This document shows, one piece after another, positions 53,937 through 64,000 of a stretch of 64,000 nt of DNA (its first letter is position 1; each line of letters starts with the position of its first letter). The position numbers and the translations under genes were made by a program. This DNA comes from Acidovorax sp. 107. Its GTDB lineage: Bacteria; Pseudomonadota; Gammaproteobacteria; Burkholderiales; Burkholderiaceae_C. The DNA is taken from the NCBI RefSeq assembly GCF_003058055.1, contig NZ_QBTZ01000002.1, positions 124,001-188,000 on the forward strand, read 5' to 3'. The notes below the pieces were generated by a model. The model saw only the letters and a program-made list of their open reading frames with translations. It searched no databases and had not been told where the DNA came from.

Positions 53937-54725
53937 TTACTTGCTGGCGCGCGAGCGGGCGCGGAAGGCTGCGATGCCGGCGCGATGCTCGGGCGTGTCT
54001 TCGAGCACCGCCATGTGCGAGGACACCATGTCCAGGTGCGTGGCGAGCGCCATGGTCTGGCTTTGGTAAACCGCGCGGCGAAAGAAGCGCACCGCCTGCT
54101 GCGGCTTGGAGGCAATGGTGCGCGCCATCTCGTAAGTGGCCGCCATCAGTTCGGCGTCGGGCACCACGCGGTTGACCATGCCGATGCGCTCGGCTTCTTG
54201 CGCCTCCACCACGCGCCCCGTCCAGAACAGCTCCAGCGCGCGCGCCGTGCCGATCAATCGTGGCAGGAACCAGGCCCCGGCATCGCCGGCCATCAGCCCG
54301 ATGTTGATGTAGCTCTCGGCCAGCGTGGCCGAACTCGCCATCAGGCGGATGTCGCACATCAGCGCCATGTCGCAGCCCGCACCGCGCGCCGCGCCGTTGA
54401 CGGCGGCAATGACCGGTTTTTCCATCCGCTCCAGGGTGAGCGCGATGCGGTGCACGTGCCGGTACAGAAAGTCCTTGCGGCCCATGCTGTCCATTTCGCT
54501 GAACCGGGCCATTTCCTCGAAATCACCGCCGGCACAAAACGCGCGCCCGGCACCGGTGACGACGACGACCTTGACGCGGTCATCGGCCTCGGCCTGCTCG
54601 AGCGCCGCGCGCCAGGCATCCACCATCTCGAGATCGAAGGCGTTGAGCTGCTCCGGCCGGTTCAGCGTCAGGGTGCAGATGCCGTCGGCATCCACTGCAA
54701 ACAGAATTGGGGCAACGACGGACAT
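53937..54725 (-). CDS. Enoyl-CoA hydratase/isomerase
   Basis: 262 residues of the crotonase family: LTLNRPEQLNAFDLEMV, GAGRAFCAGGDFEEMARF, VNGAARGAGCDMALMCDIR. The segment ESYINIGLMAGDAGAWFLPRL replaces the usual catalytic Glu context, with the second Glu position uncertain, so isomerase or hydrolase activity is possible. First gene of the minus-strand operon running to 46480. Confidence 0.88.
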   Translation of the reverse strand: MSVVAPILFAVDADGICTLTLNRPEQLNAFDLEMVDAWRAALEQAEADDRVKVVVVTGAGRAFCAGGDFEEMARFSEMDSMGRKDFLYRHVHRIALTLERMEKPVIAAVNGAARGAGCDMALMCDIRLMASSATLAESYINIGLMAGDAGAWFLPRLIGTARALELFWTGRVVEAQEAERIGMVNRVVPDAELMAATYEMARTIASKPQQAVRFFRRAVYQSQTMALATHLDMVSSHMAVLEDTPEHRAGIAAFRARSRASK

Positions 54726-54790
54726 GAGAGTCTTCCTTCAAGTGAAGTGGACGGCAAACAGGGGCGTAGAGGCAGCCCGGATTTGTGCTT

Positions 54791-55285
54791 TTAATGTATT
54801 TTAACAGAACGGTTGTTAGTTAGAGCCGATCTGCGAATCCACCTCCGGACGGGATTCATCGATCCGCTCGGTCTATGCATTCTGCGCCAGGGCGTTCGCG
54901 CAATAAGCCACCCGACTGGCAGCGTCCAACTTCGGTCAGAATCTCCATCTTCGACCAGCATCGGCGCGCAACGCAGCGTGGCTGTTGATTTCCACGCAGA
55001 AGGGGGGTTGCTCGAAACCGATCGCTTGGCAACTTCTGTAGTCATGAACCTCAACCGCTCCTGCAAATCCTCAACGATCTTGGCCAGAGCTCTGTTCAAG
55101 CCCTTTGCCTCCCCCAGCTAAGCCATGGCCTAGGCCAGCGAAGCGTCGGCACTCCCCAGCCGCGTCCGGTACTGCGTCAACTCCACCTCCATCCCTAATT
55201 TCGTCGCCGCGAACTGCTCACGCGCAGTCTTTTCCGACATCCGCCCCCCAGCCATTCGCTCTGCCGCGACGACCTCAAGTTTCAT
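54791..55285 (-). pseudogene. Unrecognised gene with two amber codons
   Basis: From ATG 55285 one frame runs 165 codons and includes a helical, charged stretch (MSEKTAREQFAATKLGMEVE, then LNRALAKIVEDLQERLRF). It is interrupted by two TAG codons near 55125-55135, each at a position where CAG (Gln) would fit. I do not recognise the family; a coiled-coil or DNA-binding accessory protein is possible. The C-terminal part has weak coding character. Confidence 0.4.
54802..54819. promoter_or_regulatory. Candidate operator upstream of minus-strand catabolic operon
   Basis: TAACAGAACGGTTGTTA at 54802-54818 is an inverted repeat TAACA-N7-TGTTA in an AT-rich stretch 77 bases before the hydratase start. 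It contains GAACGGTTGTTAG, 11 of 13 identical to the motif before the TetR gene at 40116-40128. A TetR-type operator is the simplest reading; unproven. Confidence 0.45.
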
Positions 55286-55288
55286 AGT

Positions 55289-55468
55289 TGTCACATCTCG
55301 GACGATCATATGGCCGCTTGTGAAACAGATCCGGGTGCTCTTGGTACCACTCCGACATGGCCTTCATTGGCGGCTATGCGGCCATTGAACCGCTCCACCA
55401 TGCCGTCGATTCTTGGGGTCTGGGTCCTGGGCTTGGTCAGCCGGTGCTCTATGCCCAGCTCCTGGCAC
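55289..55468 (-). mobile_element. Degenerate IS481-family fragment
   Basis: The outer end TGTCACATCTCGGACGA and the following 70 bases match the left end of the intact element at 59451-60529 with about ten changes. The encoded piece CQELGIEHRLTKPRTQTPR and GMVERFNGRI matches its transposase, with a large internal deletion. It is cut at 55468 by the next IS. A dead cousin of the intact copy. Confidence 0.8.
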
Positions 55469-55524
55469 TGAATCGCCCCGGGTTGAACTGACCCCCAGAA
55501 GTTGGACAAACTTCAAGGGGTTAC

Positions 55525-56004
55525 ATGAAGAAGTACAAAACGGAGTTCAAGCTGGAAGTGGTCCAAAGCTTCTTGGCTGGCGAAGGCGGCGCGAAGCTTT
55601 TGGCTCGGCGGTGGTCGGTTCCCGAGGAGAAGGTACGCACTTGGGTGAGCCACTACCGCCTGCACGGCATAGACGGATTGCGCCCCAAGGGCAGCACGTA
55701 CAGTGCGCAGTTCAAACTGCAGGTACTGTCCCATCGGGATCGCGAACAGCTCTCCAGCCGCCAGGTCGCGGCGATCTATGACATCCGCAATCCAAACCAA
55801 GTCGTGGTCTGGCGGCGCACTCTCGATCAAGGCCGCCTGCAGGCGCGCGAGCGCGGGAATGAAGAACAACCCAAGATGAAGCCAAAACGACGCTCTGCCG
55901 CACCGTCGAGCACGGTCGTTGCTGATGCGGAGAAAACCCTGCGAGAAGAGAACGAACGACTACGCGCGGAGGTCGCGTGTACCAAAAAAAATTGCAGGCC
56001 TTGA
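55525..56004 (+). CDS. IS3-family OrfA (two HTH domains), 3-prime frameshift
   Basis: 159 residues: two helix-turn-helix units (KLEVVQSFLAGEGGAKLLA; FKLQVLSHRDREQLSSRQVA) and a leucine-zipper-like coil LREENERLRAEV. After AEVA the family continues YQKKLQALIRSKRS, which here is found in another frame; a 2-base insertion in GCGTGTACC near 55978 explains the shift. The normal A-run slippage site (CCAAAAAAAATT) follows, so the usual -1 fusion to OrfB would fail. Confidence 0.8.
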   Translation: MKKYKTEFKLEVVQSFLAGEGGAKLLARRWSVPEEKVRTWVSHYRLHGIDGLRPKGSTYSAQFKLQVLSHRDREQLSSRQVAAIYDIRNPNQVVVWRRTLDQGRLQARERGNEEQPKMKPKRRSAAPSSTVVADAEKTLREENERLRAEVACTKKNCRP

Positions 56005-56884
56005 TTCGGTCGAAGAGATCAGCTGCGCCGACAAAGCGCATCTGATTGCCGGGTTGAGGCATCACCATAAATTGGCATACCTGTTGCAGGTCGCAGGCCT
56101 GCCACGCAGCACGTTCTACTACCAATGCCAGGCGAGCCAGCGCGCCGACCAGCAAAGCGCCTTGGAGGCCAGGATCCGCACTGTCTATGACGAGCACAAA
56201 GGACGCTACGGCTACAGACGGATCACGGCCGCGTTGTGCAATGGGGTGGCGGAACCGGTCAACCACAAGTGCGTGCAGCGTCTGATGCAAAAGATGGGGC
56301 TACGTGCGTTGATCCGGGCGAAGAAGCGCTCCTGGCATGTCCCGGGCACGAGCGATGCGCACGTACCCAACGTTCTGCAGCGCGACTTCTGCGCGACCGC
56401 CCCAAACCAGAAATGGGCGACCGATGTCACCGAGTTCAATGTAAGCGGCCAAATGCTCTACCTGTCGGCCTGCATGGACCTGTACAACGGCGAGATCGTC
56501 GCGTACCGCATGGCAAGGCGGCCGGTCTTCGAGATGGTTTCCAGCATGCTTGAGGCCGCGCTCTCGCGGACCAACTGCGTCGCAGGCCTGATCGTGCATT
56601 CCGACCAAGGTTGGCACTACAAGATGCAGCCCTACCGAGCGATGCTCGTGCGACGCGGAGTCGAGCAAAGCATGAGTCGCAAGGGCAACTGCTTCGACAA
56701 CGCGGCGATTGAAAGCTTCTTCGGCACCCTGAAAGCCGAGTACTTCCGTCTCGAAAGGCCCGATAGCATTGATGCGCTCGAAGCAGGCGTGCATGATTAC
56801 GTCCACTACTACAACCACGAGCGCATCAACCTCCGGCTGCAGGGGCTCAGTCCGGTGGAATACCGATTGAGAAGCACCGCCTAA
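55919..56884 (+). CDS. IS3-family OrfB transposase (DDE domain)
   Basis: Up to 321 residues; the family-like part begins near 56037 (LIAGLRHHHKLAYLLQVAG). The DDE core is intact: Asp in WATDVTEFNV, Asp in IVHSDQGWHY and Glu in NAAIESFFGTL, with YNHERINLRLQGLSPVEYR at the end. In this family it is made as an OrfAB fusion by -1 frameshifting, so the ATG start at 55919 is nominal. Confidence 0.85.
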   Translation: MLMRRKPCEKRTNDYARRSRVPKKIAGLDSVEEISCADKAHLIAGLRHHHKLAYLLQVAGLPRSTFYYQCQASQRADQQSALEARIRTVYDEHKGRYGYRRITAALCNGVAEPVNHKCVQRLMQKMGLRALIRAKKRSWHVPGTSDAHVPNVLQRDFCATAPNQKWATDVTEFNVSGQMLYLSACMDLYNGEIVAYRMARRPVFEMVSSMLEAALSRTNCVAGLIVHSDQGWHYKMQPYRAMLVRRGVEQSMSRKGNCFDNAAIESFFGTLKAEYFRLERPDSIDALEAGVHDYVHYYNHERINLRLQGLSPVEYRLRSTA

Positions 56885-56961
56885 TCGGCGGAATGGTGAC
56901 CGTCCAACTTCTGGGGGTCAGTTCAGTTTGAGGAGGCTCAACACTCTGAGAGGATTGAGCC

Positions 56962-57415
56962 ATGAAGAAGACGAACAAGTTCTCGCCCGTGGTGCGTGAG
57001 CGCGCGGTGAGGATGGTGCAGGAGCAGCGCGGGGAGTACCCGTTGCCCGTCGGCGTATCGACGTCATGCCGCGCTGCTACGCCAGCCCCACAAGCGCTGC
57101 GCCCGTGCCAAGCGCGACGAGTTGCTGATGCCGCAGATTCAACGCGTCTGGCAGACCAACATGCAGGTCTACGGCGCCGACAAGGTGTGGCGGCAACTGG
57201 CGCGCGAAGGCGTGACCGTAGCTCGCTGTACTGTCGAGCGACTGATGCGCAGCATGGGACTGCGCGGAGTGATGCGTGGCAAAGTCGTACGCACCACCAT
57301 CGGTGACGCCAAGGCTGCGTGCCCGCTGAACCGGGGAAACCGGCAGTTCCGGGCACAGAGGCCCAACCAGTTGTGGGTCAGCGACTTCACGTATGTCTCG
57401 ACCTGGCAGGGCTAG
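56962..57415 (+). pseudogene. IS3-family remnant (orfA start joined to part of orfB)
   Basis: ATG 56962 begins [20 protein letters not shown], a typical IS3 OrfA, but after about 26 residues the sequence jumps to orfB ([38 protein letters not shown]) in another frame. A TAG ends it at 57413-57415. The orfA C-terminus, the orfB N-terminus and most of the catalytic domain are missing. Confidence 0.75.
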
Positions 57416-57770
57416 CTGACCGTGCACCCCAGCGGCTACTACGCCTGGAAGTGCGATCCGGTGAGTTCTCGTGGCAAGGACGATTAACGCTTGTTGGGCT
57501 TGCTCAAGCACGCGTGGCTGGAGAGTGGTGGCGTCTATGGCTATCGCAAGCTCACGATGGACATGCTCGACCTGGGAGAGCGCTGCGGCAAGCACCGCGT
57601 GGCCCGATTGCTCAAGCTTGAAGGCCTGCGTTCACAGACTGGCTATCGACGCCGACCTGGCCCGCGTGGCGCCAAGCCAGCGGTGGTGGCACCAAACCAT
57701 CTGCAGCGCCAGTTCAATGTCAGCGAGCCCAATCAGTCATGGGTGACCGACATCACCTTGTATCTTGGGG

Positions 57771-57959
57771 GTGTGGCGAATAGCGTTCGCCGCACGAGGC
57801 GGGGACAGCACGGACATTACGTGAGGCCTCAAGCCTGGGATGTAGATGTCGCGCCCCGCCTCACCTTCGCGCCAATCCGAGATCGGACGGTAGCAAAGGC
57901 CTCGCCGTGTGCGATGAGCCTGCATTGACAAGGTAGATCGGCCCGAAGGGCATGGCGCG
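57771..57959 (+). ncRNA. Candidate bridge RNA of the IS110 element
   Basis: Structure in order: 5-prime hairpin 57771-57795 (GTGTGGCGAA paired with TTCGCCGCAC, one G-U); target loop closed by GAGGCGGGG/CCCCGCCTC (57796-57804, 57854-57862); donor loop closed by CGCGCCA/TGGCGCG (57868-57874, 57953-57959). Guides: 57811-57820 CGGACATTAC matches left target CCGACATCAC at 8 of 10; 57838-57845 GGATGTAG is the exact complement of CTACATCC (core plus right target); 57886-57892 GACGGTA equals the element's right end 58971-58977; 57928-57932 ACAAG complements CTTGT at 57757-57761. This is the organisation known for IS621. Expression is inferred. Confidence 0.8.
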
Positions 57960-57979
57960 CTACAACCCGGAGGCCCGAC

Positions 57980-58963
57980 ATGCTTTACTTTGGAATTGAT
58001 GTATCCCGCGACAAGTTGGACTGCGCCGTGGTCGATGAGCAAGGCCAGCGCGTCAAGCGCGCGCGTACCTTCACAAACGACACCCAGGGCGTCATTGAGC
58101 TCATAGGCTGGGCACGCGCGGTTGCTGTCGATCAGCCACGCCGCTTCGTCATGGAGGCGACCGCGGCATACCACGAGCTCGCAGCGACCCGACTCCATTG
58201 CGCCGGCCTAGTCGTCTCGGTCGTGAATCCGGCGCAGGTTCGCGCGCTGGCCAGAGGATTGGGAACACTCAGCAAAACCGATCTTATCGATGCACTGCTA
58301 CTGGCACAGTACGCGCGACTCGCTGAGCCCAGACAGTGGCGCCCGACGAAGCCTCAGTTGCAGGAATTCAGCGCGATGCTGTTGCGACTTGATTGCCTCG
58401 AAGCTGACCTTCGGCGCGAGCAGAATCGGCGGGAGCAAGCGGCAGTCCGGGGCTCGGCAGATTGTGTAATGGCTTCCATCGATGCCTGCATCGAGTTCCT
58501 GCGCGGTCAGTGCAAGGCGATGCGCAAGACGATCGACTCACACATCGTCGCCAACGAAGGGCTGAGCCAGAGCATCACGCGACTGCGCACGATTCCCGCC
58601 GTTGGTGAGAAGACCGCAAAGCGCATGGCTGCCATCCTTGGCGCCAACGACTTCGTCAGCGCCAAGGAAGCGGCGGCGTTCCTTGGCCTCGTACCGATCA
58701 AGTGCGAATCAGGCAGCAGTGTCAGAGGTCGCTCCCGCCTGTCTAAAGCAGGCAACCCAAAGGTGCGCGCGTCTCTCTACATGGCGGCGGTCGTCGCGAA
58801 GAAGATTAATCCGGACATCAAAGACTTGTACGACAGACTCTGCGCGCAGGGGAAGACCAAGATGTCGGCGCTCGGAGCGTGCATGCGCAAGCTCGTGCAT
58901 CTTTGCTATGGTGTCCTCAAATCCGATCACGACTATGTGCCGCCGGAGGCCAGATCATCTTGA
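57980..58963 (+). CDS. IS110-family transposase (bridge-RNA-guided recombinase type)
   Basis: 327 residues. N-terminal RuvC-like DEDD domain: Asp in FGIDVSRDKLD, Glu in FVMEATAAYHE, Asp in SKTDLIDALLLAQYAR. C-terminal transposase_20 domain: IPAVGEKTAKRMAAILG, FLGLVPIKCESGSSVRGRSR and GNPKVRASLYMAAV, including the candidate catalytic Ser. Family members such as that of IS621 use a bridge RNA from the left end to pair target and donor DNA. Frame intact, so the element may be active. Confidence 0.93.
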   Translation: MLYFGIDVSRDKLDCAVVDEQGQRVKRARTFTNDTQGVIELIGWARAVAVDQPRRFVMEATAAYHELAATRLHCAGLVVSVVNPAQVRALARGLGTLSKTDLIDALLLAQYARLAEPRQWRPTKPQLQEFSAMLLRLDCLEADLRREQNRREQAAVRGSADCVMASIDACIEFLRGQCKAMRKTIDSHIVANEGLSQSITRLRTIPAVGEKTAKRMAAILGANDFVSAKEAAAFLGLVPIKCESGSSVRGRSRLSKAGNPKVRASLYMAAVVAKKINPDIKDLYDRLCAQGKTKMSALGACMRKLVHLCYGVLKSDHDYVPPEARSS

Positions 58964-59446
58964 CATTCAAGACGGTATCTACATCCGCACCCATGAAGGC
59001 TGGTTGTACCTGAGCGCCGTCATCGACCTGTTCTCCAGGCAGGTGATCGGCTGGTCCATGGGGCACCGCATCGACACTGAGATAGTGCTCAACGCGCTGC
59101 TGATGGCATTGTGGCGCCGACAACCCAAAGCTGCTGTCACCGTCCACTCTGATCAGGGCAGTCAGTTCACTGGGCATGCATGGCAAGACTTCCTGCGCGC
59201 TCACAACCTGGTTTGCAGCATGAGCCGTCGGGGCAATTGCCATGACAACGCCGTGGCCGAAAGCTTCTTTCAACTTTTGAAACGAGAGCGAATCCGTCGC
59301 CAAATCTACCCAACCCGCGATCAAGCCAGAGCCGATGTCTTCAACTACATCGAGATGTTTTACAACCCTAAGCGACGCCACGGCACTGCCGGAGATACTT
59401 CACCGGTAGAGTTCGAAAAACGCCATTTCCAACGGCTCAAAAGTGT

Positions 59447-60418
59447 CTAGGTGTCGCATCCCGGACGACCATATGGCCGCTTGTGAAACAGATCCGGGTG
59501 CTGCTGGTACCAGTTCTTTATCGCCTGCATAGGCGTCTTGCTGCCCAGCGCTGACTGGTGCAACTGGTGGTTGTACAAGGCCACGTAGCGCAGCAAAGTC
59601 TGCTCCATATCCTCTCGGCCGTTGAAGCGGTGGGTCTTCAGAACATCGGTGATGCGCCCGCTGAAGCGCTCCACCATGCCGTTGGTTCTTGGCGTCCGGG
59701 GTTGGGTCAGCCGATGCTCGATGCCCAGTTCCTGGCACAGCTGATCAAATTCATGGTTGCCAGTGGGCTGACGCTCACGGCTGGCAAACAGGCGGTCCGT
59801 GAACTCCTTGCCGTTGTCCTTCAGCAGCTTGCTGATCTTGATCGGGCAGGCCTTGTGCAGTGCCCTTAGGAAGGCCTGTGCGCTGGCCGCTATCTTGTTG
59901 GCCTTGAGTTGTACGAACACCCATCGCGTGGCCCGGTCGATGGCCACGAACAGGTAGCGCCGGCTGCTTTCGTCCTGCATCTGGGGCAGGTACTTCACAT
60001 CCACGTGCACATAGCCTGGCTCATAGCTCTTGAAAGCCTTGTGGGCCGCCACGGGCTCGCGGGGCTTGAGCTCGTTGAGATTGCCCGTCCCATGGCGGCG
60101 CAGGCATCGGTCCAGGCCAGAGCGAGAGACATCTGGGCTCAGGAACTCCCGCGTGACGGCCAGCAGGTCATCCAGGGGCAGCAGCAAGGTACGCCGCAGG
60201 TGGAGCACCACGATCTCTTGTGCAGGTGTCAGAACGGTCTGCAGGCGGTGGGCCGTGTGCGAGCGATCCCCAAAGACCTCGCGCTTCTTCCACTTGTAGA
60301 CCGTCTGCTCGGTGATGCCGAAACGCTGGGCCAGCACACTGGCGGTCTCGTCGCTGGCGGCTATCTCGGCACGCACGGCAGGCGTGGTGCGGGCGTTCTT
60401 GTGCAGGGCTATCAGCAT
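59447..60418 (-). CDS. IS481-family transposase
   Basis: 323 residues from ATG 60418. HTH region ASVLAQRFGITEQTVYKWKK, then the DDE core: VHVDVKYLPQM, LLKDNGKEFTDRLF, GMVERFSGRITDVLK, closing with YNHQLHQSALGSKTP. The frame is intact; its stop codon lies within the target duplication. Upstream in-frame codons to 60529 cross the element end and are not used. Confidence 0.92.
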   Translation of the reverse strand: MLIALHKNARTTPAVRAEIAASDETASVLAQRFGITEQTVYKWKKREVFGDRSHTAHRLQTVLTPAQEIVVLHLRRTLLLPLDDLLAVTREFLSPDVSRSGLDRCLRRHGTGNLNELKPREPVAAHKAFKSYEPGYVHVDVKYLPQMQDESSRRYLFVAIDRATRWVFVQLKANKIAASAQAFLRALHKACPIKISKLLKDNGKEFTDRLFASRERQPTGNHEFDQLCQELGIEHRLTQPRTPRTNGMVERFSGRITDVLKTHRFNGREDMEQTLLRYVALYNHQLHQSALGSKTPMQAIKNWYQQHPDLFHKRPYGRPGCDT

Positions 60419-60529
60419 GGCTTTACTCCCAGACTCGGTTGCAACGACTCTATCAACTCTTGCAAGACGGCTCGCGCCATGAAGAGCGGATAGCGTTTGG
60501 AGTCTATGCAATCGTCCGGGATACGACAT
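59451..60529 (-). mobile_element. IS481-family insertion sequence with CTAG target duplication
   Basis: 1079 bases. Terminal repeats TGTCGCATCCCGGACGA (left) and TGTCGTATCCCGGACGA (right, reverse-complemented) differ at one position. The element is flanked by CTAG at 59447-59450 and 60530-60533, the target preferred by IS481 elements. It landed at the very 3-prime end of the IS3-family orfB remnant. A degenerate relative lies at 55289-55468. Confidence 0.92.
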
Positions 60530-60555
60530 CTAGGGAATACGGGGCGATTTAAGCC

Positions 60556-60792
60556 CAAATTTCCGGACAAAGTTTGTCTACAACTTTGCTAAAAAATAGG
60601 AACAACAAAAAAATGAACGTGATGCCCCCTCTATTTTCATGCATTATTTGCTAGACGTTAACGGAGTTTAAGGCAGATCAGATGTTAAATGCAAAACAAT
60701 TTCAAACCGTCGAAAAATTACCGAACTTAACGAAACGATCAAAGCTATACAAAGTAACGTAACTATCCAATCTTGCGAAATTTGCGGCAGCG
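60556..60792. other. AT-rich gap
   Basis: About 240 bases of conspicuously AT-rich sequence, unlike everything around it, next to the IS nest. A 26-codon frame from ATG 60682 (MLNAKQFQTVEKLPN) is the only open stretch and is too short to defend. It may be foreign DNA or a relic of a leader/attachment region. Confidence 0.4.
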
Positions 60793-61236
60793 ATGTACAT
60801 TCCTCTCTGGAAGCCACGGTCAGGACGAGCCATGTCCGCCACGCGACCACAGGAGAACGAGATGCTTGCTTGGATAGATGGCCCATGTGGGCCGAGCGCA
60901 CCCGCCGCGTTCGATCACTACGCGATCATTCGCCGTAGTGGCGACCTTGTGCCCTTTGAACCGCAGTTGATTGCTCAGGCCATGATGAAAGCGTTCCTGG
61001 CCGTGCATCAGACGATACGGCGGTCTTGCACATGGCACCCGTTTTCCTACCCGATGAGCACCCTGTCGAGTCGCGTCTCGCAGTGGTATAGCCACGAACG
61101 CCTGGAGGTCCGCTTCCCGAAGATGGGCGGTGGCGCGCGCCTGAGGTCACGGCGCCGCAACAACACAGACCTTCGCGACGGATCTACTTCTGGCTTCTTC
61201 TCGGCGGCAAAGCCCAACCTGCGCAACGCGCCATAA
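60793..61236 (+). pseudogene. ATP-cone fragment resembling the ribonucleotide reductase alpha N terminus
   Basis: 147 codons. YAIIRRSGDLVPFEPQLIAQ followed by AMMKAFLAVHQT is the ATP-cone at the N terminus of class I NrdA-type proteins. After that the sequence (WHPFSYPMSTLSSRVSQWYS, FPKMGGGARLRSRRR) no longer matches a reductase and no catalytic domain follows. Probably a truncated nrdA-like gene fused to unrelated DNA; a small stand-alone ATP-cone protein is less likely. Confidence 0.5.
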
Positions 61237-61259
61237 GCGCACCACGGTTTGAAATCCCC

Positions 61260-61730
61260 ATGAACACCCTGTCCATTTCCTCACCGTTTGCCCACCGCAA
61301 TGCCCCAGACCTCTCGCAGGCGTCTCCTGATCCCTACGCGACAGCGGCCCAGTCTGCCGCTGTCTTGCGCTCGGGTGCGCAGTACCGCCGCGAGCGCATG
61401 GAAGCCGACGACATGATCACGACCGACGACGCTGCACTGCTGGCAGGCGCCAGCCGGGTGACCATCAACGCCTGGATCAAGTCGCGCCGCTGCATCGGGG
61501 TTTCCCACCTGCGCCGGGGGTTCAAGTTGCCGCGCTGGCAGTTCGAACCCAACCTGTGGCCCATCCTGCAGCCCTTGGCATCGGCCCTTGGCGCGTCCGA
61601 TGGCTGGCAGGTGCTCACCTTCCTGGAGACGCCGGCATCGGCCCTCGACGGCCAGACACCGCGCGCCGCACTTGAGCAGGGCGTCCCAGCGAAACACATC
61701 CTGGCATTGGCAACGGCTGAGGCTCACTGA
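61260..61730 (+). CDS. Xre/ParS-type antitoxin of a RES toxin system
   Basis: 156 residues. A helix-turn-helix region (MITTDDAALLAGASRVTINAW then IKSRR, span about residues 51-76) precedes a C-terminal toxin-binding domain rich in Leu/Trp (WQFEPNLWPILQPLASALG). Residues 1-45 look disordered; an internal ATG at 61398 may be used. The toxin gene follows after 13 bases, the standard antitoxin-first order, and antitoxins of this type repress their own operon. Confidence 0.8.
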   Translation: MNTLSISSPFAHRNAPDLSQASPDPYATAAQSAAVLRSGAQYRRERMEADDMITTDDAALLAGASRVTINAWIKSRRCIGVSHLRRGFKLPRWQFEPNLWPILQPLASALGASDGWQVLTFLETPASALDGQTPRAALEQGVPAKHILALATAEAH

Positions 61731-61743
61731 ATGACCTCGCCTC

Positions 61744-62322
61744 ATGAACCTGACAGACCTCAATCCGCCATTCATTGAACTTCCTGACCGCCAAATCTGG
61801 CACCGCATCCAGCGCACCAGCTGGCGCAAAGACAGCGTGCGAACGCGCGGGTTCATCCTCCCGCCCTTCGGCATTCCCACTGGCCGTTTCGATCTGTCCG
61901 ACGAGCCCACTGCCTACCTCGCCGATAGCGAGCAGACCTCGTGCTACGAGGCGCTTTTTCGGCGGGACACGCGCAGCTACACCCTGGATCAACTCCGGCA
62001 ACGCTCACTGGTAGCCTTTCGCACGGCAGCAGGGATGCGCCTTGTCGATCTGCGCGGGCTGGAGGAGAACTACCCTGTGCTGCAATCCCTGCGTTACGAG
62101 GCCACACAAGCCTTTGCCGCCGACGCCCGGAAGGCCGGTGCTCATGGGGTCATGTACGCATCCGCGCAGCACCCCTACCATTCCTGCATCTGCCTGTTCG
62201 AACGCGGCGTGGCCAGCATGACCAAGGTATCAAGCACACCGCTCGTGCAACCCGGCAGTGATCGCCTCCACCTCAGTGTTCTGCGCGCAGCTCTGGGCTC
62301 TCAAGTAGCCATCGTCTCGTGA
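61744..62322 (+). CDS. RES-domain toxin
   Basis: 192 residues. WHRIQRTSWR, FGIPTGRFDLS, AYLADSEQTSCYEALFRRD and DARKAGAHGVMYASAQHP are the RES-domain blocks with conserved Arg, Tyr and Glu. RES toxins deplete NAD+ and arrest growth until neutralised by the Xre/ParS partner. The frame is complete, so the pair may be functional and could stabilise this IS-rich segment. Confidence 0.85.
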   Translation: MNLTDLNPPFIELPDRQIWHRIQRTSWRKDSVRTRGFILPPFGIPTGRFDLSDEPTAYLADSEQTSCYEALFRRDTRSYTLDQLRQRSLVAFRTAAGMRLVDLRGLEENYPVLQSLRYEATQAFAADARKAGAHGVMYASAQHPYHSCICLFERGVASMTKVSSTPLVQPGSDRLHLSVLRAALGSQVAIVS

Positions 62323-62338
62323 ATCAGGAGTGCAACCC

Positions 62339-62869
62339 ATGCCCATGACCCCGCGTCCATCAGTAGTGCGAACCGATGCCGATGGCCTTGCCGCCTTCCA
62401 GGGTGACGCGCTGCTGGTGCTGGAGATCTCCAAGCGCGAGATTGAAACCGGAAACATCGCGAGCGCGCTGGAGCGCCTGCACGCAATCGCCGAGTCCTGA
62501 GAGACGGCCCTTCGCTACCAAGAGTGCCTGGTGATTCAGGTGCTGGGTTACGACTCTGACCACCGTGAACTGGCGGAAATCCCCGAGGTGCGCGCCTTCT
62601 TTGCCGGACTCGCTCGAGAGTGGCCCCACTGGATGTGGTTCCTGCACAGGCATGTAGGGGCGATCCATTTGCTGTTGGCACTGCTGTGCAAGGTCAAGAT
62701 CCATCGCCGGGGGAGCAGTACAGGGACCGAGTTTCTTGACCGCCATGAGCTTGCTGCCCAGATGGCTGACCTGTTCCAGCGCGGCAACGCCATGTTCGAG
62801 GCGTTCGGAATCAGCGAAAGCGAGGCCGAAGCTTCATGCGAGCGCGCGTGCGCTGAGCTGGTTCCATAG
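62339..62869 (+). pseudogene. Hypothetical gene interrupted by an in-frame TGA
   Basis: A single frame of 176 codons from ATG 62339 to 62869 is broken only by TGA at 62498-62500 (HAIAES stop ETALRYQ), where Trp would fit. The downstream part has normal coding character (LREWPHWMWF-like WPHWMWFLHRHVGAIHLLL, DLFQRGNAMFEAFGISESEA). I do not recognise the family. The location directly after the toxin gene suggests an accessory-region gene of unknown role. Confidence 0.6.
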
Positions 62870-62983
62870 CCACCGTCATCCGGGGCCGTGGACGAGCCGA
62901 TGGGATGCTGGATCACCCCCTCAGGGTGCATGGGCCACGACAAGAAACACCTAACGGATGGGAAATCTGGGCGGAAAGGAGAT

Positions 62984-63009
62984 TCCTGTCGCCCGAACCC
63001 ACGACAGGA
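62984..63009. terminator. Candidate hairpin between convergent genes
   Basis: TCCTGTCG and CGACAGGA pair perfectly around a 10-base loop. It lies between the plus-strand hypothetical gene and the convergent lipoprotein gene. No T-run follows on either strand, so terminator function is tentative. Confidence 0.4.
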
Positions 63010-63026
63010 TCACCCGAGCGAAAAGG

Positions 63027-63998
63027 TCAGTCCTGGTAGACGGACACACGCCGCAGCGTCTTTCCCAAAACGACCACCTCCACACTGCCGACCGTGTAGC
63101 CACCGAGCTGCCATCGGCGGCTTCCATCTGACGCCCGCTGCTGCTCCCCAAAGGCACCTGCCATCCGCTGCTCGAACGCAGACATGTCCTCGGCCGTGAC
63201 GCTGCAGGTGACACCCACCATGCCCCGGCGCGGCTGGAAGTCGAATTGCACGGGCCGATCCACTGAGCAGGGAATGAAGCCGTCGCTCAAGCGGATCGGC
63301 GGCTGCATGCCGGCCTGGTAGCCCATGCCACACCCGATACCGCCTCCAAACGAATAGGCACTGCAGTTGCGGACATCGAAGCCATAGAGATCGCCAGCAT
63401 CTCTGGGCGACATCCCCAGCGGAGCTGCGACCGACACGCCACCCTCATCACCAGGCTTGGCGATGTAGACCATCTGGGCCGAACCGCAGCCAGGGTACAG
63501 CCGCACCTTGTAGCTGGTACCGTCCTTGAGCTGGCTGGACACGTCGAAGAACCCCTCCTTCGAAAACGAGGTCTTTACGTTCCACGGACCCTCATGTTCC
63601 AGCACCTTGCTGATGGCCTCGATCAGGCTGGACTCACGGCAGGAGCCGCTTTGGGTCGCGGCGAACCAGGTTGCCTTGGCCTGCGCCGATTTCGTCACGT
63701 CATCGGCGCAGCGCAGCCAAGACTTGTCCGAGTTGGCGGCGGCATAGGGCCCCCAGCACCACCCACGGGATTCAGCCATCTCCTCCGCAAGGTTCGCGCG
63801 GCTGCACGGAGATCCTGGCTTGTCCGAATCCTGTGTCGCCGCGCGGCACTCTACCCGCTGGTGCAGGGCCTCGGCCTGCAGCTTTTCATCGCTCATGGCG
63901 CCGTAGGCTTTGCGCACGTCTTCGACGGTCGTTTCACCGCAACCGGTCAGCGCCAAAGTTGCGGCCGACACCAAAGGCAAGAGGACAAGAAGCTTCAT
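63027..63998 (-). CDS. Predicted lipoprotein of unknown function
   Basis: 323 residues. A signal peptide (LLVLLPLVSAATLALTGC) ends in the lipobox LTGC, so the Cys at residue 20 would be lipidated and the protein anchored in the membrane facing the periplasm. The mature part is Cys-rich (RGWCWGPYA, LRCADD, GSCRES, RNCSAYSFGGGIGCGMG), consistent with disulfides. No known domain was recognised. It is convergent with the toxin-antitoxin block. Confidence 0.75.
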   Translation of the reverse strand: MKLLVLLPLVSAATLALTGCGETTVEDVRKAYGAMSDEKLQAEALHQRVECRAATQDSDKPGSPCSRANLAEEMAESRGWCWGPYAAANSDKSWLRCADDVTKSAQAKATWFAATQSGSCRESSLIEAISKVLEHEGPWNVKTSFSKEGFFDVSSQLKDGTSYKVRLYPGCGSAQMVYIAKPGDEGGVSVAAPLGMSPRDAGDLYGFDVRNCSAYSFGGGIGCGMGYQAGMQPPIRLSDGFIPCSVDRPVQFDFQPRRGMVGVTCSVTAEDMSAFEQRMAGAFGEQQRASDGSRRWQLGGYTVGSVEVVVLGKTLRRVSVYQD

Positions 63999-64000
63999 TG

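Follow-up and report, generated by a model that had tools for sequence, protein, structure and literature searches.

IS621, an IS110-group insertion sequence of Escherichia coli, combines a DEDD and serine recombinase with an RNA encoded upstream of the recombinase gene. As set out in PMC11208160 and PMC11208158, this RNA consists of a 5' stem-loop, a target-binding loop and a donor-binding loop, carries its guides in a fixed order with the right donor guide spacing nine bases over seven, and serves an element with a CT core, handshake positions and a promoter at the junction of its ends. The element that we describe from Acidovorax sp. 107 resembles IS621 in each of these respects. It differs in having a distinct protein and in its right target guide, which pairs over 8 nt, against 4 nt in IS621 (PMC11208158).

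A second comparison is with ISEc21 and its relative ISMch6, IS110-family elements which, according to PMC11187229, take conserved catalytic codons in IS3-family transposases as their target and form a promoter where their ends join; both traits recur here, the promoter as a prediction. The same paper describes natural redirection of ISMch6 through changed guide bases, and has ISEc21 aimed at the second D of the DDE triad (PMC11187229). With its site at the second Asp codon of IS3 transposases, ISEc21 is a close published precedent. Unlike in ISEc21 and ISMch6, redirection in the lineage studied here would span two transposase families, IS3 and IS6, and family knowledge places its site at the first D rather than the second. 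This target, a codon motif of DDE transposases, also separates the element from IS621, whose target we take to be REP.

The seekRNA elements of the IS1111 group (ISEc11, ISKpn4 and ISPa11) likewise use an RNA-guided DEDD transposase, their RNA lying downstream of the gene (PMC11187229), whereas here it lies upstream. ISCro4 (PDB 9t56) has a homologous recombinase, and its likeness to our element is at the protein level. At the level of sequence, what the element offers is its anatomy, its boundaries, an empty site, guide matches and, in relatives, covariation of guides with target flanks. We are highly confident that it belongs to the IS110 group and encodes a bridge RNA of the IS621 type; it would follow the RNA-guided cycle proposed below.

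The element, its insertion site and its recombinase

Coordinates refer to the window, by which we mean the whole stretch of 64,000 nucleotides that was analysed. The element and its surroundings comprise:

55525-56884: IS3-type genes
57122-57415: older broken IS3-like piece
57491..57758, + strand: left part of a split IS3-family orfB, C-terminal ...SWVTDIT (HTH_21, translation)
57750..57758, + strand: left target ACATCAC and core CT, inside the D-I-T-Y codons of the split IS3 orfB
57759..58980, + strand: whole IS110-group element, left end (LE) to right end (RE) plus one CT core copy; both junctions read directly, empty site in Comamonas (L043)
57759..57763, + strand: left end, or right donor, TGTAT; paired 7/7 by the right donor guide, core included
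57980..58963, + strand: IS110-family DEDD transposase/recombinase, 327 aa, with D7, E59, D101, D104 and S244 (PF01548, PF02371, NF033542)
58972..58978, + strand: right end, or left donor, ACGGTAT
58979..58986, + strand: core CT and right target ACATCC, inside the T-Y-I-R codons of the split orfB
58981..59450, + strand: right part of the split IS3-family orfB, IRTHEGWLYL... (PF00665 from profile position 19, PF13333)
59447-60529: IS481-family transposase, on the strand opposite to the element

The element measures 1222 bp from core to core, with a second CT copy at 57757-57758. Its left flank reads ...W-V-T-D-I-T, and past the CT core on the right follow the I-R-T codons of an IS3-family orfB, the Tyr codon being split; because the core-to-core insert is 1,222 bp long, the two halves of orfB stand in different frames. 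The right part shares 76-80% DNA identity with the two best annotated IS3 transposases. A preliminary description of this DNA had held that the element interrupts orfB and that its target can be reconstructed; an uninterrupted IS3 gene of Comamonas sp. C11 (L043) reads GACCGACATCACCT-ACATCCGCAC, identical to that reconstruction. In Diaphorobacter sp. HDW4B, an uninterrupted IS3 gene has the same site with core AT and one further change (the empty sites are L043 and L042). Comparison of the junctions with the Comamonas site places the insertion at the core dinucleotide and shows that no target sequence outside it was duplicated. In the Comamonas protein fragment the Pfam rve domain starts at residue 88, and T-D-I-T-Y-I occupies residues 96-101; the Asp of D-I-T-Y-I we take, from knowledge of the family, to be the first catalytic D of the DDE triad. 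In the 5.1-Mb genome of the strain, the intact target pattern GACATYACNTAYATC has no exact uninterrupted match and no further copy of the element was found.

The region from 55525 to 60529 is a pile-up of insertion sequences around the element. Farther along, a RES-domain gene (61744-62322; PF08808, 8.8e-20) directly follows a small ORF (61260-61730) for which no Pfam or NCBIfam match was found, and the two (61260-62322) resemble, in their arrangement, a toxin-antitoxin pair of the RES-Xre type.

The transposase ORF is open over 327 aa and matches PF01548 (DEDD RuvC-like N-terminal domain, 1.8e-23), PF02371 (C-terminal Transposase_20, 2.1e-21) and the NCBI model NF033542, 'IS110 family RNA-guided transposase' (195.9 bits against a cut-off of 140). 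It aligns with the recombinases of IS621 (PDB 8wt6; phmmer 189 bits, E=1e-54) and ISCro4 (E=4.7e-50). Residues D7, E59, D101, D104 and S244 correspond to the catalytic D, E, D, D and S of IS621, as numbered in PMC11208158, and are invariant across an alignment of 26 sequences that includes the window's own (A2). Upstream of the gene lies a long non-coding left end (57759-57979) encoding the predicted RNA. By the sequence features tested, the element belongs with the bridge-RNA elements of the IS110 group. Membership of the IS1111 group was rejected, the RNA being upstream and only 15 bp (58964-58978) separating the stop codon from the core.

The predicted bridge RNA and predicted junction promoter

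The RNA and promoter features are as follows:

57761..57766, + strand: predicted -10 TATCTT, 17 bp from the RE -35 once the ends are joined
57771..57795, + strand: bridge RNA 5' stem-loop; two-sided changes at 8 of 10 pairs in alignment A5
57796..57862, + strand: target-binding stem-loop with a perfect 9-bp closing stem (57796-57804/57854-57862); two-sided changes at 12/12 helix pairs, 13 sequences
57814..57822, + strand: left target guide (LTG) ACATTACGT, matching left target and core
57838..57845, + strand: right target guide (RTG) GGATGTAG, complement of CTACATCC, 8/8
57846..57847, + strand: target-loop handshake guide AT, complementing donor positions 6-7 (AT), by the rule in PMC11208158
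57868..57959, + strand: donor-binding stem-loop with a perfect 7-bp outer stem (57868-57874/57953-57959)
57887..57894, + strand: left donor guide (LDG) ACGGTAGC, 7/8 with the RE sequence ACGGTATC
57924..57932, + strand: right donor guide (RDG) ATTGACAAG, nine RNA bases on the seven donor bases CTTGTAT, 7/7 in IS621 spacing
57933..57934, + strand: donor-loop handshake guide GT, complementing target positions 6-7 (AC)
58960..58965, + strand: right-end TTGACA, predicted to act as a -35 in the circle alone

Folding of the sequence upstream of the gene gives -100.5 kcal/mol (z -2.74), a value equalled by 1 of 200 shuffles; an Rfam scan of 54000-64000 returned no relevant family. An RNAalifold pairing between sequence upstream of the 5' hairpin and the donor loop (columns 9-13/144-148) was kept out of the model as a matter of judgement.

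Guide geometry was taken from IS621, with the core at positions 8-9, left guides starting at position 1 and the RDG laid nine on seven (PMC11208158 and PMC11208160), and guides were scored against the target ACATCAC-CT-ACATCC and the donor ACGGTAT-CT-TGTAT. The LTG is identical to its target at 7/9 positions, with one G-U wobble (U in the guide for C in the target at position 5) and one mismatch (G in the guide for C in the core); the RTG scores 8/8 and the LDG 7/8, its base at position 7 being G and that of the donor T. The RDG reaches 7/7 with two bases flipped out, the arrangement known from IS621. With the handshake dinucleotides left out, the ordered four-guide score is 29.5/32, which none of 20,000 dinucleotide shuffles reached (mean 22.4, sd 1.0, maximum 27.0). 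Taken singly, the guides differ: 1261 and 1271 of the 20,000 shuffles did as well as the LTG and LDG, respectively (about 6% each, moderately unlikely alone), and the RTG and RDG are stronger (54 and 121).

These results support the sequence-level interpretation of the preliminary description. The 5' hairpin and the two loops closed by perfect 9-bp and 7-bp stems, upstream of an intact IS110-family transposase, are present as it had them, as are a left target guide with one wobble, a right target guide exactly complementary to CT plus the right target, and a stretch of the second loop that matches the right end. Its ACAAG, proposed as the complement of core plus left end, proves to be part of the complete RDG, which continues discontiguously to seven pairs, and the shuffles agree with its view that four guides in IS621 order are hard to obtain by chance. 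Both handshake dinucleotides (57846-57847 and 57933-57934), which it did not mention, also match.

When RE is joined to LE, the window and a relative from a Polaromonas metagenome-assembled genome (L002) read TTGACA-N17-TATCTT, a predicted sigma-70-type promoter. Among 19 elements with a right end, a -35 at 17-bp spacing is perfect (6/6) in five (the window, L002, L008, L022 and L023) and matches at 5/6 in eight; the remaining six, mostly with a poorly defined left end, have only 3 or 4 of the 6 bases. Seven bases past the -10, transcription would start near 57773, close to the 57771 given in the preliminary description.

One could envision that this is a decaying member of the group, whose bridge RNA was once used and whose present copy, with imperfect guides, no longer moves. 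The copy is indeed single, with no second insertion in the genome, its LTG and LDG both carry mismatches, and several broken insertion sequences lie nearby. Against this, the transposase is open and retains its catalytic residues, the joined-end promoter has a 6/6 -35, and the G of the LDG opposite donor T at position 7 is common in the group, since it is also seen in six relatives (L002, L006, L007, L022, L023 and L027). We consider an immobile copy unlikely, while granting it real weight.

Covariation of guides and flanks among relatives

Relatives were IS110 loci from searches of genomes, plasmids and viral sequences. Transposase relatives were present in 1,156 plasmid records, three of which were taken from among the matches listed (H6, H12 and H23), and in 17 phage records. 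Among the transposase relatives were P0001-P0032, 65-94% identical, and full-length ones such as P0085 from Microvirga (50% identical). On viral contigs, a protein scan with a single query found no relative and one with alignment A2 found four; DNA-pattern matches on viral contigs (three stretches for the donor-guide motif, five for the RE junction) were set aside, as they came without transposase or RNA similarity. Across 369 genomes of the class, the donor-guide pattern matched in the strain's own genome only.

A covariance model was built from four sequences: the window, L002, L010 (a plasmid of Rhizobium sp. X9) and L011 (a plasmid of Microvirga lotononidis). Tried on 31 further loci it matched 22, two of which (L025 and L026) had been found with the model itself, so that the fair count is 20 full-length matches among the 29 other IS110 loci to which transposase or DNA similarity had led; a model from IS110 relatives was the check that the preliminary description had proposed. 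The matches adjoin the start of a transposase match, which in L026 covers only 36 residues. Nine of the 29 loci were missed: L003, L009, L030 and L041 are partial, L012 and L013 are broken pieces, and L004, L037 and L038 carry long transposase matches. In alignment A5 (13 of the 26 RNA hits), 32/37 pairs vary in both partners, with pairing in 90.7% of cells, values that 0/500 shuffles reached in either case, the alignment being fitted to the model structure and leaning in favour of pairing to that extent; the CCGA/TCGG helix of the donor loop pairs in only 69.6% of cells. This stem covariation indicates an RNA fold. Two Enterobacter and Klebsiella plasmid elements (L016 and L017) have a longer target-binding loop, which the model could not align and which is possibly an elaborated bridge RNA.

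The 26 RNA hits, from 29 sources that did not include L003, L004, L009, L012, L013 and L030 (earlier without a match), were then compared with their own flanks. The LTG matches its own left flank and core at a mean of 7.67/9, against 5.00 in mismatched pairings (15 of the 26 hits), and the RTG its own right flank at 6.63/8 against 4.70 (19 of the 26); 0/100,000 permutations reached the sum for either guide. Left out of the LTG test were L016 and L017, whose target loop the model misaligned (over the first 40 loop bases they give 5/9 and 8/9), and L028, L031-L036, L039 and L040, whose left end was undefined by rule or, for L028, excluded by hand although fitting; a manual two-base shift was applied to L025 and L026. 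The comparison for the RTG omitted L010 and L011 (right end lost) and L016, L017, L026, L039 and L040 (RE motif not found). Without the model-building sequences and near-duplicates, the LTG scores 7.70 against 5.00 (10 elements; 1/100,000) and the RTG without core 4.55/6 against 3.54 (11 elements; 2/100,000). In the strictest held-out set, with L025 and L026 also removed and no hand-shifted ends, the values are 7.38 against 5.07 for the LTG (8 elements; 16/100,000) and 4.60 against 3.51 for the RTG without core (10 elements; 8/100,000).

Individual elements fit less well, namely L014 and L029 at the left flank (4/9 and 5/9) and L007 and L022 at the right flank (4/8 and 5/8). The LTG of L002 gives 7/9 unshifted and 8/9 when shifted by one, to allow for an extra T at its left junction. 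This extra T (L002:137-145) and the one T fewer than the expected core at a right junction in L003 (3003-3013) are possibly small slips after insertion. Two copies in one genome (L022 and L023, G778) have the same target-loop guides and lie at two sites whose left flanks match the LTG at 9/9 and 7/9; the copy with the 7/9 flank is a natural case of insertion into a poorer match.

On the donor side, the RDG pairs 7/7 in 15/17 elements and 6/7 in the other two, a CT donor core being assumed, and a U-A pair is exchanged for C-G in L025 and L026. The first handshake base of the target loop complements donor position 7 in 19/19 elements and the second complements position 6 in 18/19. Both L014 and L029 have the right end ACGGTAG in place of ACGGTAT, and in both the first handshake base behind the RTG reads C rather than A, an A-T to C-G exchange that reads as a compensatory change at the published handshake guide position. 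The donor-loop handshake is only weakly element-specific (18.5/34; equalled by 2,410 of 100,000 permutations). There is little variation among the donor ends, in part since ACGGTA[TG]CT was required in the search for RE, and this makes the donor covariation test nearly uninformative. The expectation in the preliminary description that the loops covary with target and donor is borne out for the target, in the full and held-out sets alike; for the donor, the few changes seen fit the guides.

The near-constancy of the LDG and RDG, which resemble the ends, bears on another reading, in which the non-coding end is conserved for a different reason, as promoter, leader or DNA-level binding site of the recombinase, and guide matches are by-products of end repeats. 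The donor matches alone could be such repeats. However, the target guides match host flanks that differ among elements, the stems covary as in an RNA, and the published biochemistry of IS621 and ISEc21, in PMC11208160 and PMC11187229, speaks for a guide RNA; we regard this reading as very improbable. That the apparent guides were merely picked out of GC-rich sequence has a negligible probability: the LTG or LDG alone may be equalled in about 6% of shuffles, but the ordered set was equalled in none of the 20,000, and the cross-element permutations, which are separate from the ordered score, argue against it as well.

Proposed cycle and choice of target

A bridge-RNA element of the IS621 type would be expected to operate as follows. 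By analogy with the biochemistry of IS621 and ISEc21, the element would be excised as a circle, in which the joined ends would create the sigma-70-type promoter. The RNA (about 57773-57960) would be transcribed and, again as in those systems, bound by the DEDD/serine recombinase. Its target loop would pair, on both strands, with a 15-bp site where an IS3-family transposase gene encodes its first catalytic Asp (D-I-T-Y-I); its donor loop would pair with the element's own ends. Strand exchange, for which IS621 and ISEc21 again provide the analogy, would take place beside an NT core, the N being the last letter of the Thr codon.

The window's element and L002 occupy the same codons of two distinct IS3-family genes, and between them the RTG changes from G to A where the target changes from TAC to TAT. 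In L003, which keeps only the 3' part of an element, the right flank is again an IS3-like orfB (the IS3 label rests on the translated motif in L002 and L003, and in L002 also on DNA matches to annotated IS3 genes). The two plasmid relatives L010 and L011, with RNA regions 74.5% and 71.5% identical to the window's, have left flanks encoding W-H-V-D-E-T and W-R-V-D-E-T, which match the NCBI IS6-family transposase model (2.5e-22 and 2.3e-11). Sequence past the truncated L011 element matches the same model (7.3e-19, profile 106-201), and the L011 flank is frameshifted just before the insertion site. Both elements are truncated after about 23-44 transposase residues, their right flanks and ends lost; uninterrupted annotated IS6 genes (L044 and L045) read GACGAGAC-AT-ACAT.

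The LTG of L010, ACGAAACTT, matches its own flank at 9/9 and the window's at 5/9; that of L011, ACGAGACGT, gives 8/9 and 5/9; that of L002 gives 8/9 on its own flank and 5/9 and 6/9 on those of L010 and L011. The contrast is weak for the window's LTG, with 7/9 on its own flank against 6/9 on either IS6 flank. The window, L010 and L011 share the RTG stretch GATGTAG. From these four elements, which carry the argument, it would seem that two RNA relatives occupy the corresponding codons in IS6-family genes, the left guide being changed and the right one kept.

Left-junction cores are CT, TT and GT, with an irregular ATT in L002, and the core base that varies falls in third position of the Thr codon. 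For IS621, PMC11208158 reports that the cores GT, AT and TT are functional too, with an almost invariant T. It is tempting to speculate that this IS110 lineage specialises on the first catalytic Asp codon of DDE transposases through the motif D-x-T-Y-I: the right guide would stay fixed on the Y-I codons, the left guide would be swapped between families (D-I-T in IS3, D-E-T in IS6), and a first core position open to any base would absorb the last base of the Thr codon. We give this proposal about an even chance of being right. In the open-licence literature we found no report of a first-D target site or of an IS3-to-IS6 switch, and both are apparently new to it; the element itself is a new example of a known bridge-RNA mechanism, the retargeting possibly a new case.

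The locus is a clean instance from nature that allows the bridge-RNA model to be checked for its guide, donor, target, core and handshake features within a single element, for which an independent empty site exists. Its lineage amounts to natural retargeting data, with IS3-aimed and IS6-aimed RNAs differing mainly in one guide; if the proposal above is true, nature would provide an instance of retargeting, from one kind of host element to another, by the swap of a single guide module. Finally, the targeting of transposase genes, which are broken at a catalytic codon, suggests that moves of such IS110 elements may do little harm to the host.
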